Source of the DNA: Candidatus Gastranaerophilales bacterium
GTDB lineage: Bacteria; Cyanobacteriota; Vampirovibrionia; Gastranaerophilales; Gastranaerophilaceae
Assembly: GCA_947588755.1 (NCBI GenBank)
Contig: CANPZB010000006.1
Location: 1 to 52,256, forward strand
Direction: 5' to 3'
DNA: 52,256 bases
Below, in pieces: positions 1 to 52,256 of the stretch. The translations under genes were made by a program, and so were the position numbers. Within the stretch, counting starts at the first letter, position 1. The number at the start of each line of letters is the position of its first letter. The notes under the pieces were generated by a model. The model saw only the letters and a list, made by a program, of their open reading frames with translations, ran no database searches and was not told the origin of the DNA.

Positions 1-112
1 AACAAGTTCAGGATGACATGGGGTGTTCAGGGCATTTCGTGCAATTAAGATACTGAACCAATGCCACGAAATAAGATCCTGAAACGAGTTCAGCATGACA
101 TCACGGTTCAGG
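1..112. repeat. Dispersed CTGAA/TTCAG hairpin repeats, copies at left edge
   Basis: Two to three copies of the interspersed hairpin family that recurs near 27.8-29.6 kb and 34.6-34.9 kb. One is GATCCTGAAACGAGTTCAGC near 74, and a half copy sits at the very start. They lie downstream, on the minus strand, of the leader and promoter at 146-325. They would therefore be in the 5' part of a transcript whose prepilin-like gene is beyond the left edge. No protein gene is visible in bases 1-346 apart from the short leader ORF. Confidence 0.7.
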
Positions 113-145
113 ATGACAGAACGAGAACCCAATTTTTCGGGGCTT

Positions 146-178
146 AATAAAAAATCAAAAAATCGCCAAAACCTTTGG
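146..178 (-). terminator. Attenuator-like hairpin with T-runs, cassette copy 1
   Basis: On the minus strand the stem CCAAA-GGT-TTTGG is followed by two runs of six T. The stem is only 5 bp (perhaps extended by CGC/GCG across a bulge), so it would be a weak intrinsic terminator. It lies between the promoter at 298-325 and any downstream gene, which fits an attenuator. The same element recurs at 29757-29786 and 34969-34998. Termination is inferred, not shown. Confidence 0.45.
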
Positions 179-188
179 TATGAGCGGT

Positions 189-257
189 TTACCCCCCCCC
201 CGTTTGTGTGATTTTATACGTCACATGTAAGTTTTTCCCGCTCTTTTTCGTTACCAT
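189..257 (-). CDS. Leader ORF of prepilin cassette copy 1, interrupted at a G10 run
   Basis: A 22-codon ORF begins at an ATG about 41 nt after the -10 box and ends ITQTGGG-stop, where a run of ten G is followed directly by TAA. If the run were nine G, the frame would pass through and continue to KPLIPKVLAIF-stop, ending at 155. The same ending is found in the copies at 29763 and 34975. No strong Shine-Dalgarno is visible. The matching frame and C-terminus in the copy at 35009 argue that it is translated. It could instead be a non-coding leader in which the DNA is conserved for other reasons. Confidence 0.35.
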   Translation of the reverse strand: MVTKKSGKNLHVTYKITQTGGG

Positions 258-297: not shown

Positions 298-325
298 ATT
301 ATATACTTTTCTTAACTTTTGTCAA
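298..325 (-). promoter_or_regulatory. Prepilin-cassette promoter, copy 1
   Basis: The minus strand reads TTGACA (325-320), a 16-nt spacer, then TATAAT (303-298). The block around the -35 (TCTTGACAAAA) and the 16-nt spacing are shared with the promoters at 29874, 33592 and 35123. It drives leftward transcription into the leader and off the window edge. Confidence 0.75.
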
Positions 326-28311: not shown

Positions 28312-29331
28312 TTAGTCTGAGCATTTATGCTTTCCGTCCCAGCTTAAATCATCACAATGCAGGTAATCCATGTTGTCATTTAAAATTACCCAAGCGGAAC
28401 AGCCTCTGCCCTGATTATCAGGGCTATCACCGGTTTCTTTTTTATTGCAATATTTATCAAATGAAGGATATCCTTTTGAGTTTCCGCGTGGCATTATTCC
28501 GTTTTTTCCAAAGGTTAAATTAAATACGTCTACCCCGATTTTTTTAGATTTTCCTCCTGGAAGTATTATCCAGAAATCTCCACATACATCAGATTCGCAA
28601 TTTAAACGACTTACCCAGCCTGCCGCAAATATAGTACCGTCATTCATCCTATAATATATTTCATTATCATCAGCCTTCCAAGGTGACATATTGGTGACTA
28701 ATCTGCCGTCAAGCGAATATGTGGTGTTACTTACAACTGTTTCTTTGTCCAGTGGTTGAGATTTCATATATTTTGATAAAATTCTGCCGACATTTATTGT
28801 TCCTGTATAATCATATATCGGATTACCTTCATCATCATTTTTCTTTGTGTCTGTTATAGTTAAGCCCCAATTATCGGGTGTACCGTAATCTGCTACCGCT
28901 CTGACAAATGCCTGATTTAATACCGAATAGGCTTTTTTAAGCTGTGTAATACGTTGTCTTTCTTTGTATTTCGCCACCAAAGACGGTACGGTTAACGCTG
29001 CTACTACACCGATGATTCCGAGGGTGATAAGGACTTCTGCCAGAGTAAAGGCGGGTTTTTGTGAAAGGTGAGAAGTGAACGCACTGCGTTGTGAGAAGTG
29101 AGAAGTGAAAAGTGAGAGGTTCTTATCGGGTGCTAAAGCACCAAAATCACACCTAAACCACCCCATGTCATCCTGAACTTGTTTCAGCATCTGAGCCTTG
29201 TCGTGTCTTACAGTCTTTTCGACCCCGTCATTTTTAATCAAACTGTTATTCTTAACTCGTTTCAGGGTCTTACCATTTTCGGGTCCCACTGTCTTTTCCA
29301 AAATCTTCACGTTTTTAAAATCTTTTTTCAT
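28312..29331 (-). CDS. Type IV prepilin-like protein 1 with repeat-derived leader
   Basis: 339 residues. The prepilin N-methylation segment is KPA|FTLAEVLITLGIIGVVAALT, with predicted cleavage after residue 94 and Glu99 as +5. A hydrophobic helix follows and then a globular C-terminus ending NMDYLHCDDLSWDGKHKC, with several cysteines. The 94-residue leader is far longer than the usual 5-25. It is built from translated repeats: LKQVQDDM is the CTGAA hairpin, and TSHFSQRSAFTSHLSQ is a GTGAGAAGTG repeat. The ATG has AAAGGA upstream. It is preceded by the promoter at 29874-29901 and the leader ORF at 29763. Confidence 0.88.
   Translation of the reverse strand: MKKDFKNVKILEKTVGPENGKTLKRVKNNSLIKNDGVEKTVRHDKAQMLKQVQDDMGWFRCDFGALAPDKNLSLFTSHFSQRSAFTSHLSQKPAFTLAEVLITLGIIGVVAALTVPSLVAKYKERQRITQLKKAYSVLNQAFVRAVADYGTPDNWGLTITDTKKNDDEGNPIYDYTGTINVGRILSKYMKSQPLDKETVVSNTTYSLDGRLVTNMSPWKADDNEIYYRMNDGTIFAAGWVSRLNCESDVCGDFWIILPGGKSKKIGVDVFNLTFGKNGIMPRGNSKGYPSFDKYCNKKETGDSPDNQGRGCSAWVILNDNMDYLHCDDLSWDGKHKCSD
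29096..29195. repeat. Repeats inside the prepilin 1 coding sequence
   Basis: From left to right: GTGAGAAGTG-type direct repeats, the GGTGCTAAAGCACC hairpin (29129-29142, the other arm of the 28246 inverted repeat), and a complete CTGAA/TTCAG hairpin (about 29168-29188). All are read in frame as part of the prepilin leader. Another half copy is at about 29255-29275. Confidence 0.85.
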
Positions 29332-29756: not shown

Positions 29757-29786
29757 AAAAAATCAAAAAATCGCCAAAACCTTTGG
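29757..29786 (-). terminator. Attenuator-like hairpin with T-runs, cassette copy 2
   Basis: Same CCAAAGGTTTTGG stem followed by two T-runs as at 146-178. The leader ORF stop TGA falls between the two T-runs. Confidence 0.45.
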
Positions 29787-29834
29787 TATGAGCGGTCCCC
29801 CCATTTGTCCGTTTTTATGCTCTGCGTCTGCCAT
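29763..29834 (-). CDS. Leader peptide of prepilin cassette 2 (intact frame)
   Basis: 23 codons: MADAEHKNGQMGG then PLIPKVLAIF-stop. GGGGG lies about 7 bases before the ATG. The last ten residues match the potential extensions of the leader ORFs at 189-257 and 35009-35080, and partly the right-edge ORF (PLYGCVLAVF). Here the G run is six long and no stop intervenes, so the ORF is open. It ends in the T-run of the attenuator-like hairpin. A cis-acting leader peptide or a tiny protein are both possible. Confidence 0.45.
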   Translation of the reverse strand: MADAEHKNGQMGGPLIPKVLAIF

Positions 29835-29873: not shown

Positions 29874-29901
29874 ATTATAACCATTTTTTAAGTTTTGTCA
29901 A
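29874..29901 (-). promoter_or_regulatory. Prepilin-cassette promoter, copy 2
   Basis: Minus strand TTGACA (29901-29896), 16 nt, TATAAT (29879-29874), followed by AACTCATAC as in copy 4. It drives the leader and the prepilin gene at 28312-29331. Confidence 0.75.
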
Positions 29902-33667: not shown

Positions 33668-34780
33668 TTAAAATTTTATCGGGTAGTCATCAGGGATTTT
33701 CCAGCCATTATCTTCTATTAAAGCTGTACAAAAATTCCCTCCGTCTTTTCTGCAAAAAACACCAACATATTTATAAATGCTGTTTTCAAACAGCCCCTCT
33801 CTTGTACCGTCCCAACCTTGAGTAGTCGGGATAAAACCTTCTCTTGTTATCCCGTCGTTTGGTGGTAATTTTACCCGATCATAACCAGTTACATCAGGTA
33901 TATACATAAATGAAAATGTATTCTTCCCGTCAGCATAATAACTATACTTAGTATCAAGATATTTTCGAGCATCACCATGAACACTGTATATCCACACATA
34001 AACGCTAGTACCATTTACACAATACAACGTAGAACCATCCGGAAAATAAATTAAAGGATGTTTTCTGCCTGACGAAGTATCAATTTTAACAATTTTCATG
34101 TATGGTGCCCAATATTTTTGAATCCATTCTGTCTGATCTGAAACACCCCCGCCTTCACCACCTTCATAAGTCCAATCTTTTTTGGGACCAAAGTCTACTT
34201 CAGCTCTTTTTATAGCCTGATTCATTAAACTGAAAATTTTAACCAATTTAGTTTCAACTACACGTTTTCTGTAATTTTGAATTAACTGAGGCATTACCAA
34301 CATAGCCACAACGCCGATAATTCCGAGGGTGATTAGAACTTCCGCCAGAGTGAAACCGAATTTTCGGTAGGGTGCCGTGTGAGCGATAGCGAACCCAACC
34401 CGTGAGGTGGAGCGGGACGTTACTCCCGCGACAACCCGAATAATTCGGGAAGCGGCTCTACGTGAAAAGTGAGTTGGTGAAAGGTGAGAAGTGAACGCAC
34501 TGCGTTGTGAAAAGTGAGAAGTGAAAAGTGAAAAGACCTTATCGGGTGCTAAAGCACCAATAAGACACCTTAACCATCCCATGTCATGCTGAACTTGCGG
34601 ATTTGCGGACGGACGGAGTAATAACGAGTCCGGATAGCGAACAGATTGAGCATACTGTGGCGAAGCCACAAATGCGAAACTCTGTGAGCGTGGAGCAAAT
34701 CCAAGACGTTTCAGGATCTGAGCCTTGTCGGGTCCCACTGTCTTTTCCAAAATCTTCACGTTTTTAATTTCTTTTTTCAT
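33668..34780 (-). CDS. Type IV prepilin-like protein 2 with very long repeat-derived leader
   Basis: 370 residues. The prepilin segment FG|FTLAEVLITLGIIGVVAML is cleaved after residue 142 in the usual position, with Glu147 as +5. The C-terminal globular part ends ALIEDNGWKIPDDYPIKF. The N-terminus MKK(E)IKNVKILEKTVGP is shared with prepilin 1. The 142-residue leader contains at least four in-frame repeats: a CTGAA hairpin split by a 111-bp element, the GGTGC hairpin, GTGAGAAGTG repeats, and a CCCGAA-TTA-TTCGGG element. The mature domains of the two prepilins differ beyond the first helix. Confidence 0.85.
   Translation of the reverse strand: MKKEIKNVKILEKTVGPDKAQILKRLGFAPRSQSFAFVASPQYAQSVRYPDSLLLRPSANPQVQHDMGWLRCLIGALAPDKVFSLFTSHFSQRSAFTSHLSPTHFSRRAASRIIRVVAGVTSRSTSRVGFAIAHTAPYRKFGFTLAEVLITLGIIGVVAMLVMPQLIQNYRKRVVETKLVKIFSLMNQAIKRAEVDFGPKKDWTYEGGEGGGVSDQTEWIQKYWAPYMKIVKIDTSSGRKHPLIYFPDGSTLYCVNGTSVYVWIYSVHGDARKYLDTKYSYYADGKNTFSFMYIPDVTGYDRVKLPPNDGITREGFIPTTQGWDGTREGLFENSIYKYVGVFCRKDGGNFCTALIEDNGWKIPDDYPIKF
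34362..34462. repeat. Palindrome-rich element inside prepilin 2
   Basis: Contains GCGGGA-GTAACG-TCCCGC, CCCGAA-TTA-TTCGGG and a GGGTTGGGTTCGC segment like that in the tRNA-Leu repeat unit (GGGTTGGGCTCGA). It is absent from prepilin 1, so prepilin 2 has an extra in-frame block of about 34 residues just before the cleavage site. Confidence 0.75.
34581..34719. repeat. Nested repeat: 111-bp element inside a hairpin repeat
   Basis: The hairpin repeat ATGTCATGCTGAACTTG...TTTCAGGATCT is interrupted in its loop by 34598-34708. The insert has near-terminal inverted repeats GGATTTGC (34599-34606) and GCAAATCC (34695-34702) and an inner hairpin GTGGC-GAA-GCCAC. Partial copies of the same insert are at 27859 and 29465, the first also in a hairpin loop. 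It stays in frame in prepilin 2 (RLGFAPRSQSFAFVASPQYA and onwards). Confidence 0.85.
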
Positions 34781-35008: not shown

Positions 35009-35080
35009 TTACCCCCCCCCCGATTGTGTGATATCACTCATCACATTTGCTTCTTTTATATTCATTGACTGTCTCAACAT
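35009..35080 (-). CDS. Leader ORF of prepilin cassette copy 3, interrupted at a G10 run
   Basis: 23 codons, MLRQSMNIKEANVMSD then ITQSGGG-stop. As in copy 1, ten G are followed by TAA. With nine G the frame would continue to KPLIPKVLAVF-stop at 34975. The bases before the G run (ATCACACAA) and the frame match copy 1, while the codons further upstream have diverged. AGG sits just before the ATG, and an inner ATG at 35065 is also possible. Confidence 0.35.
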   Translation of the reverse strand: MLRQSMNIKEANVMSDITQSGGG

Positions 35081-35122: not shown

Positions 35123-35150
35123 ATTATAGGTATTTTTTAAGTTTTGTCAA
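35123..35150 (-). promoter_or_regulatory. Prepilin-cassette promoter, copy 3
   Basis: Minus strand TTGACA (35150-35145), 16 nt, TATAAT (35128-35123). It starts 17 bp after the stop of the gene at 35167. Confidence 0.75.
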
Positions 35151-51963: not shown

Positions 51964-52007
51964 AAATTATATCTTATCACGAATATTAATTAAACAAAGA
52001 CAAACAC

Positions 52008-52035
52008 TTGAAATCTTCAAAATATATGTTATAAT
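52008..52035 (+). promoter_or_regulatory. Promoter and leader start at right edge
   Basis: TTGAAA, 16 nt, TATAAT. Downstream is the hairpin CGGTGC-GAA-GCACCG and then CCGAAAATTTGGG, a word also found in the three prepilin cassette leaders. This may be another member of that leader family in the opposite direction. Confidence 0.5.
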
Positions 52036-52114
52036 GTTAACGTAAGGTTGAAATATTCAATCGGGAAGTACTCCGGTGCGAAGCACCGAAAATTTGGGAG
52101 TTAATGAAAAAATT

Positions 52115-52256
52115 ATGAATAAATCGAATTTTGAAGTTTTAGCATTCACCCCCCCCGAGTCTGTAAACCCGCTCTATGGCTGCGTTTTAGCCGTTTTTTG
52201 TTTTTGGGGTAATTTTAAAGGGATAAATTTTTGTCCCTCGTTTTGTCGTGCGAATT
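52115..52256 (+). CDS. Partial ORF at right edge, leader-peptide-like
   Basis: Open from the ATG at 52115 to the window end, starting MNKSNFEVLAFTPPES and continuing VNPLYGCVLAVF. The segment PLYGCVLAVF matches PLIPKVLA(I/V)F of the prepilin leader peptides in frame, and its DNA has an eight-C run, a GGCT/AGCC stem and a T-run in similar positions. It has extra codons beyond the T-run (CFWGNFKGIN). A four-codon ORF (MKKL) at 52104 ends inside its ATG. Low certainty because the gene is cut. Confidence 0.3.
   Translation, partial: MNKSNFEVLAFTPPESVNPLYGCVLAVFCFWGNFKGINFCPSFCRAN

Follow-up and report, generated by a model that had tools for sequence, protein, structure and literature searches.

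Diversity of the type IV pilin at Neisseria pilE comes from recombination out of silent copies, and in attenuation of the trp type the position of the ribosome within a leader decides termination, with tRNA charging as the condition sensed. The loci described here share type IV pilin diversity with pilE, but each copy has its own promoter and its own switch; they resemble trp attenuation in that ribosome position would be decisive, but the signal would be the length of a DNA tract. Closer parallels exist in which a slippable repeat sets the frame. At pil1 and pil3 of S. gallolyticus, the repeat lies in a leader whose short frame ends well before a stem-loop terminator and whose long frame reaches it, with the pilus genes downstream and the majority OFF (PMC3894217); a similar layout is seen here, most clearly in genus G010. 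For pil1, the low state goes with a leader that ends 28 nt or more ahead of the terminator, and the high state with one ending beside or inside it (PMC3894217). Poly-G and poly-C loci are numerous in N. meningitidis (about 115 predicted phase-variable loci) and C. jejuni (about 29 tracts); as in the present family, about 8-14 G or C lie early in a frame and one frame in three is ON (PMC5084427, PMC4965091). The differences lie in what is switched and how. The S. gallolyticus repeat is GCAGA and serves one or two sortase-pilus operons, whereas the tracts here are mono-G or mono-C and precede dozens of type IV-like prepilin genes; the Neisseria and Campylobacter loci are a mixture of surface and modification genes, whereas most loci examined here serve prepilins alone.

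The window, by which we mean the whole stretch of 52,256 nucleotides that was analysed, carries at its left end, on the minus strand, a unit that we call copy 1. Its promoter (TTGACA-N16-TATAAT, 298..325) is sigma-70-like and matches the consensus at 12 of 12 positions. The leader ORF (189..257) is of type B, a class whose start codon is uncertain, and contains a G10 tract at 192..201 (C10 on the plus strand). An earlier note on this DNA had described a leader that runs into ten Gs and then directly into TAA; minus-strand translation of 257-189 gives exactly this, MVTKKSGKNLHVTYKITQTGGG followed by a TAA at 191-189 that adjoins the tract, so that the copy is OFF as assembled. Beyond it lie a conserved hairpin, GCTCATACCAAAGGTTTTGGCG (164..185), present in 40 copies in the genome and followed by T6-G-T6 (163-150) in a terminator-like arrangement, and a REP-like spacer (1..163). 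The G10 frame ends at once and the G9 frame about 11 codons later, and the G11 or G8 frame (L002) is open up to the contig end. The prepilin gene of copy 1 is expected past that end and thus outside the window. Judged from its sequence, copy 1 probably represents promoter, leader and G tract of one member of an extensive set of contingency loci, in which every unit would control a prepilin gene.

Two further minus-strand copies retain their downstream genes, both of which carry a prepilin N-terminus with the cleavage/methylation motif. Copy 3 has a promoter that again matches TTGACA-N16-TATAAT at 12 of 12 positions (35123..35150) and a type B leader, MNIKEANVMSDITQSGGG and stop (35009..35065), with G10 at 35021-35012. 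Its ending, ITQSGGG, agrees with the earlier observation that copies 1 and 3 share a coding frame, and it too is assembled OFF. The prepilin gene that follows (33668..34780) includes a DUF6613 domain and scores above cut-off for both TIGR02532 and PF07963. Its ATG lies 231 nt past the G tract, and the G11-frame ORF stops at +158 (L004): copy 3 has a separate leader ORF with a slippable tract, and a pilin-type gene that starts on its own. Copy 2 (L003) has the same promoter form (29874..29901) and a type A leader, MADAEHKNGQMGGPLIPKVLAIF and stop (29763..29834), with only G6 at 29802-29797; four Gs and the TAA have been lost, and the frame enters GPLIPKVLAIF before its stop. The sequence suggests that copy 2, its tract cut to G6, is probably locked in a short frame. 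The prepilin-like gene 3' of it (28312..29331) has its own start and scores above cut-off for TIGR02532, with PF07963 below cut-off (E 4e-4). At the right end, on the plus strand, a C-type leader of the same system (52115..52256; ATG at 52115, C8 at 52149-52156) is assembled in an ON-type frame, C8 being equivalent to C11; this frame is open to the contig end, which cuts the leader. G runs of at least 8 occur nine times in the window against 0.46 expected from shuffles, and the GCTCATACCAAAGGTTTTGGCG block three times against none expected. Among Rfam families, only a tRNA was matched in the window, and no known leader RNA.

The window's copies belong to a family that extends through the 1.83 Mb genome, which is a draft in 89 contigs. 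The hairpin block was found 40 times when up to three mismatches were allowed, against 0 for a reversed control pattern; such counts rest on searches, and the number is at least 40. The tract is G10 in 25 of these copies and G9 in ten, interrupted or shortened in four (L003, L023, L032 and L033) and cut by a contig end in one. Type A leaders have a Shine-Dalgarno sequence (SD), AGGGGG, and begin MADVEIKNGQ or a variant of it, and type B leaders, those of window copies 1 and 3, are without a clear one. A similar promoter precedes the leader copies that have upstream sequence, and a scan found a prepilin gene downstream of nearly all copies with enough downstream sequence, L031 being the main exception. 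A profile search gave 104 matches to the PF07963 prepilin motif in the genome, and most of its prepilins have their own conserved start, MK(K/E)(E/K)IKN, with a ribosome-binding site, apart from the leader frame. The family upholds what had been read from the window, a translatable leader ahead of prepilin genes whose frame is set by a G tract of the slipped-strand type. Paralogous tracts are 9 or 10 long in this genome and 8-14 elsewhere, differences that would fit slippage, although they compare paralogues and genera and not one population; the fairly uniform lengths within the genome could mean that slippage is slow or that the assembly gives a consensus. MutS is present, which speaks against lost mismatch repair as a driver.

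We followed the leader frame out of the tract copy by copy. At G10 the stop comes at +0. At G9 it comes at +34 in most copies, after the ending GKPLIPKVLAIF, as expected from the earlier proposal that one G fewer would fuse the leader to a conserved KPLIPKVLAIF ending; the proposal fails in five copies (L028, L029, L035, L037 and L039), in which this frame already ends at +16, within the hairpin. The G11 frame, equal to that of G8, is open for 158-488 nt over the spacer wherever it could be traced and usually ends 38-125 nt short of the prepilin ATG. In 20 spacers we counted 40 stops in the G11 frame, 92 in G9 and 172 in G10, with about 133 expected after shuffling, and 20, 74 and 154 without the outlier L009, which gives half of the 40 in G11; these counts are not independent, as the copies are related and REP-like spacers are stop-poor in some frames, and alone they are no proof.

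Two loci in which leader and prepilin can be fused settle the productive direction as G11/G8. L216 has a G10 tract and a type B leader, as do its sisters, copies 1 and 3. It stops at once at G10 and after EPSIP at G9; at G11 it reads VNRPYHNFWRFFDF and runs on directly into the prepilin sequence KRRAAFTLAEVLITLGIIGVV, so that the leader is fused into FTLAEVLITLGIIG. L207, which has another leader, is OFF at G9, with a stop after 15 codons, and reads uninterrupted into FTLAEMMVVM at G8. The loss of one G, which the earlier note had taken as the switch, therefore leads into a second short frame. A third class of leader in the genome, with C tracts, stops after 17 codons at C10 and is open for 122-161 codons at C11. 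The fusion layout is missing in most copies of this genome, window copy 3 included, and none of the intact G-tract copies of the window's leader type is assembled in the G11/G8 frame. Either nearly all of them are OFF, or the ON state has been misjudged; this uniform OFF state could mean that the switch is perhaps rarely used.

Sequence searches found the exact leader sequence in none of 99 relatives or the viral contigs, and a wider search of genome contigs returned four unrelated, chance-like matches. Since the sequence was found only in its own genome, we sought conservation in the architecture. The pattern of an SD, an ATG, 15-40 nt and G8 or more is present in 36 of the family's 117 genomes, against hardly any control matches, and across 194 genomes of the class it is almost confined to that family; genome G040 has the most sites of any one genome, up to 87. 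Of 30 such loci followed in six other genera, five run into contig ends. Among the 25 that are untruncated, 24 have exactly one tract frame that links the SD-ATG with a long prepilin-type ORF, and two short frames. L180, L190, L191, L194 and L204 are assembled ON and most others OFF, and in genome G012 a C tract has the same role, with loci in both states. Leaders in the other genera are unrelated in sequence to those of the window genome and share the same SD-ATG-tract-prepilin logic, and unlike S. gallolyticus many of these genera use direct fusion in place of a terminator. Within the family, genera differ in their PF07963 motif counts, which lie between 6 and 112 in the relatives. Phase variation as the kind of event, which the earlier note had proposed with the wrong direction, is made much likelier by this cross-genus comparison of sequences.

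Where leader and prepilin are uncoupled, the arrangement of hairpins suggests how one might act on the other. In genus G010, leader (consensus MQKxxIxRIS-GGG) and prepilin are separate, and between them lies a terminator-type hairpin that begins about 71 nt past the tract. As assembled, most copies stop at +8, and 27 of 28 stop at least 28 nt ahead of the hairpin. With one G fewer the stop falls at +15 in most copies; with one G more it falls at most 15 nt from the hairpin or past it, again in 27 of 28. In L151 and L165 the frames are permuted, and each still has one open frame. These positions agree with the criterion established experimentally for S. gallolyticus pil1 in 27 of 28 copies. In the window genome, the spacers contain 23 sense-strand terminator-like hairpins against 2.1 in shuffles. 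The first hairpin lies only 6 nt past the tract, with further terminator-like hairpins downstream, so that even a stop at G10 would leave the ribosome near it, and the case for attenuation is weaker than in G010. The Rho RNA-binding domain (Rho_RNA_bind) was absent in 20 of 20 genomes, the window genome included, and we dropped Rho-dependent polarity as an OFF mechanism on that ground. Given this absence and the enrichment of terminator-like hairpins, intrinsic termination appears from sequence to be the likeliest route in the uncoupled copies.

We therefore favour, with reasonable though not full confidence, a model in which these are slipped-strand contingency loci for a large prepilin repertoire. 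A strong constitutive promoter would yield a transcript with a short leader ORF, about 10-22 codons long, that leads into a G or C tract. If the tract slips in vivo, ribosomes would exit it in another frame: two frames stop within a few codons (OFF), and the third, G11 or G8 in the window genome, would let ribosomes continue along the mRNA (ON). At a few loci here, as in many related genera, the ON frame is that of the prepilin itself, so that the gene would be made or not made, which is classical translational phase variation. Most copies here, and those of G010, have an ON frame that crosses the spacer and stops ahead of a prepilin with its own start. In these uncoupled copies, translating ribosomes would block the intrinsic-terminator-like hairpins, such that the prepilin would be transcribed only with the leader in frame, and OFF would mean that no prepilin is made. 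Variation of pili at the surface would follow, and the sequences make it probable that large sets of surface fibres are switched randomly between on and off in these bacteria. With somewhat less assurance, we lean towards a broader picture: a probably gut-dwelling family holds tens of prepilin genes genome-wide, each switched by a homopolymer, some of its lineages have turned the fusion into a leader-ORF attenuator, and in each cell one or a few of the mostly silent prepilins may be sampled at a time.

It is possible, though unlikely, that in this species the tract is a remnant of phase variation, the prepilins having gained their own starts and the leader being transcribed but controlling nothing. 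The independent start and ribosome-binding site of most prepilins would fit such decay, as would the OFF assembly of every intact copy of the window's leader type and the four damaged tracts. However, promoter, leader and tract have been kept in about 40 copies, the G11 frame stays open over spacers of differing length, and the same genome holds at least two true fusion loci, together with C-tract leaders that share the layout of one open frame.

We consider it very unlikely that the unit chiefly serves recombination or acts as a mobile repeat, its shared promoter and leader DNA being the means by which prepilin cassettes are spread or reshuffled, with the tract incidental. What points in that direction is that the copies are nearly identical, that the spacers are REP-like and that contigs break at the units, but shared repeat DNA does not explain why unrelated leaders follow the same logic in other genera. 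Another reading gives the KPLIPKVLAIF-ending peptide a regulatory or signalling role, with G9 as the ON state: the ending is found in most copies at G9, ten copies are assembled at G9 and the stop sits in the U-tract behind the first hairpin, where a ribosome could block that hairpin. The peptide ending is nonetheless the translation of conserved hairpin DNA, five copies stop within the hairpin and fusion loci such as L216 end early at G9, and we regard this role as highly improbable. It is extremely unlikely that assembly errors account for the tract lengths and the bias towards OFF, since a one-G error, to which long G runs in a draft assembly are prone, would shift ON and OFF calls but not the existence of the tract or the three-frame layout across genera.

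Returning to the contingency-locus model, phase-variable pilins have not been described for Melainabacteria or Gastranaerophilales in the open-access literature that we searched, as judged from titles, abstracts and term counts. A phase-variable leader peptide in front of pilus genes, which the earlier note thought new, has its precedent in S. gallolyticus (PMC3894217); the combination and scale appear to be new, a single family whose genomes carry tens of prepilin units, with the fusion and attenuator designs side by side. If the model is correct, this repertoire of uncultured bacteria would be among the largest single-class phase-variable ones described, each cell could show a different pilin set, and the retention of about 100 prepilin genes in a 1.8 Mb genome would be explained. 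It would also mean that an attenuation switch of the S. gallolyticus type arose independently, as an alternative to fusion within one family.

Several smaller features were observed along the way. RNAalifold suggested that the G tract pairs with a short C-rich element downstream, CCUCCG in G010; by eye, the corresponding element in the window genome is GCCCCG, and the model does not need this pairing. In the G010 loci L145-L174, a near-invariant ACCTCCGA lies about 45 nt past the G tract and is a possible pairing partner for the tract or for the SD of either leader or prepilin. In genome G000, contigs often end within a leader or a REP-like spacer, and many prepilin matches lie near contig ends; with breaks at these places, assemblies of this kind probably show too few prepilin genes or join them wrongly. 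On the plus strand of the window, the stretch 51980-52256 comprises the C-type leader together with its promoter, TTGAAA...TATAAT. Just 3' of the copy 3 prepilin, at 33619-33592 on the minus strand, is a promoter-like TTGATA-N16-TATAAT that resembles the leader promoters and has no G tract near it. Finally, both minus-strand prepilins of the window (28312-29331 and 33668-34780) have a very long stretch of about 90-140 residues ahead of FTLAEV, and these long N-terminal parts consist partly of translated REP-like repeats, for example KAQMLKQVQDDMG.
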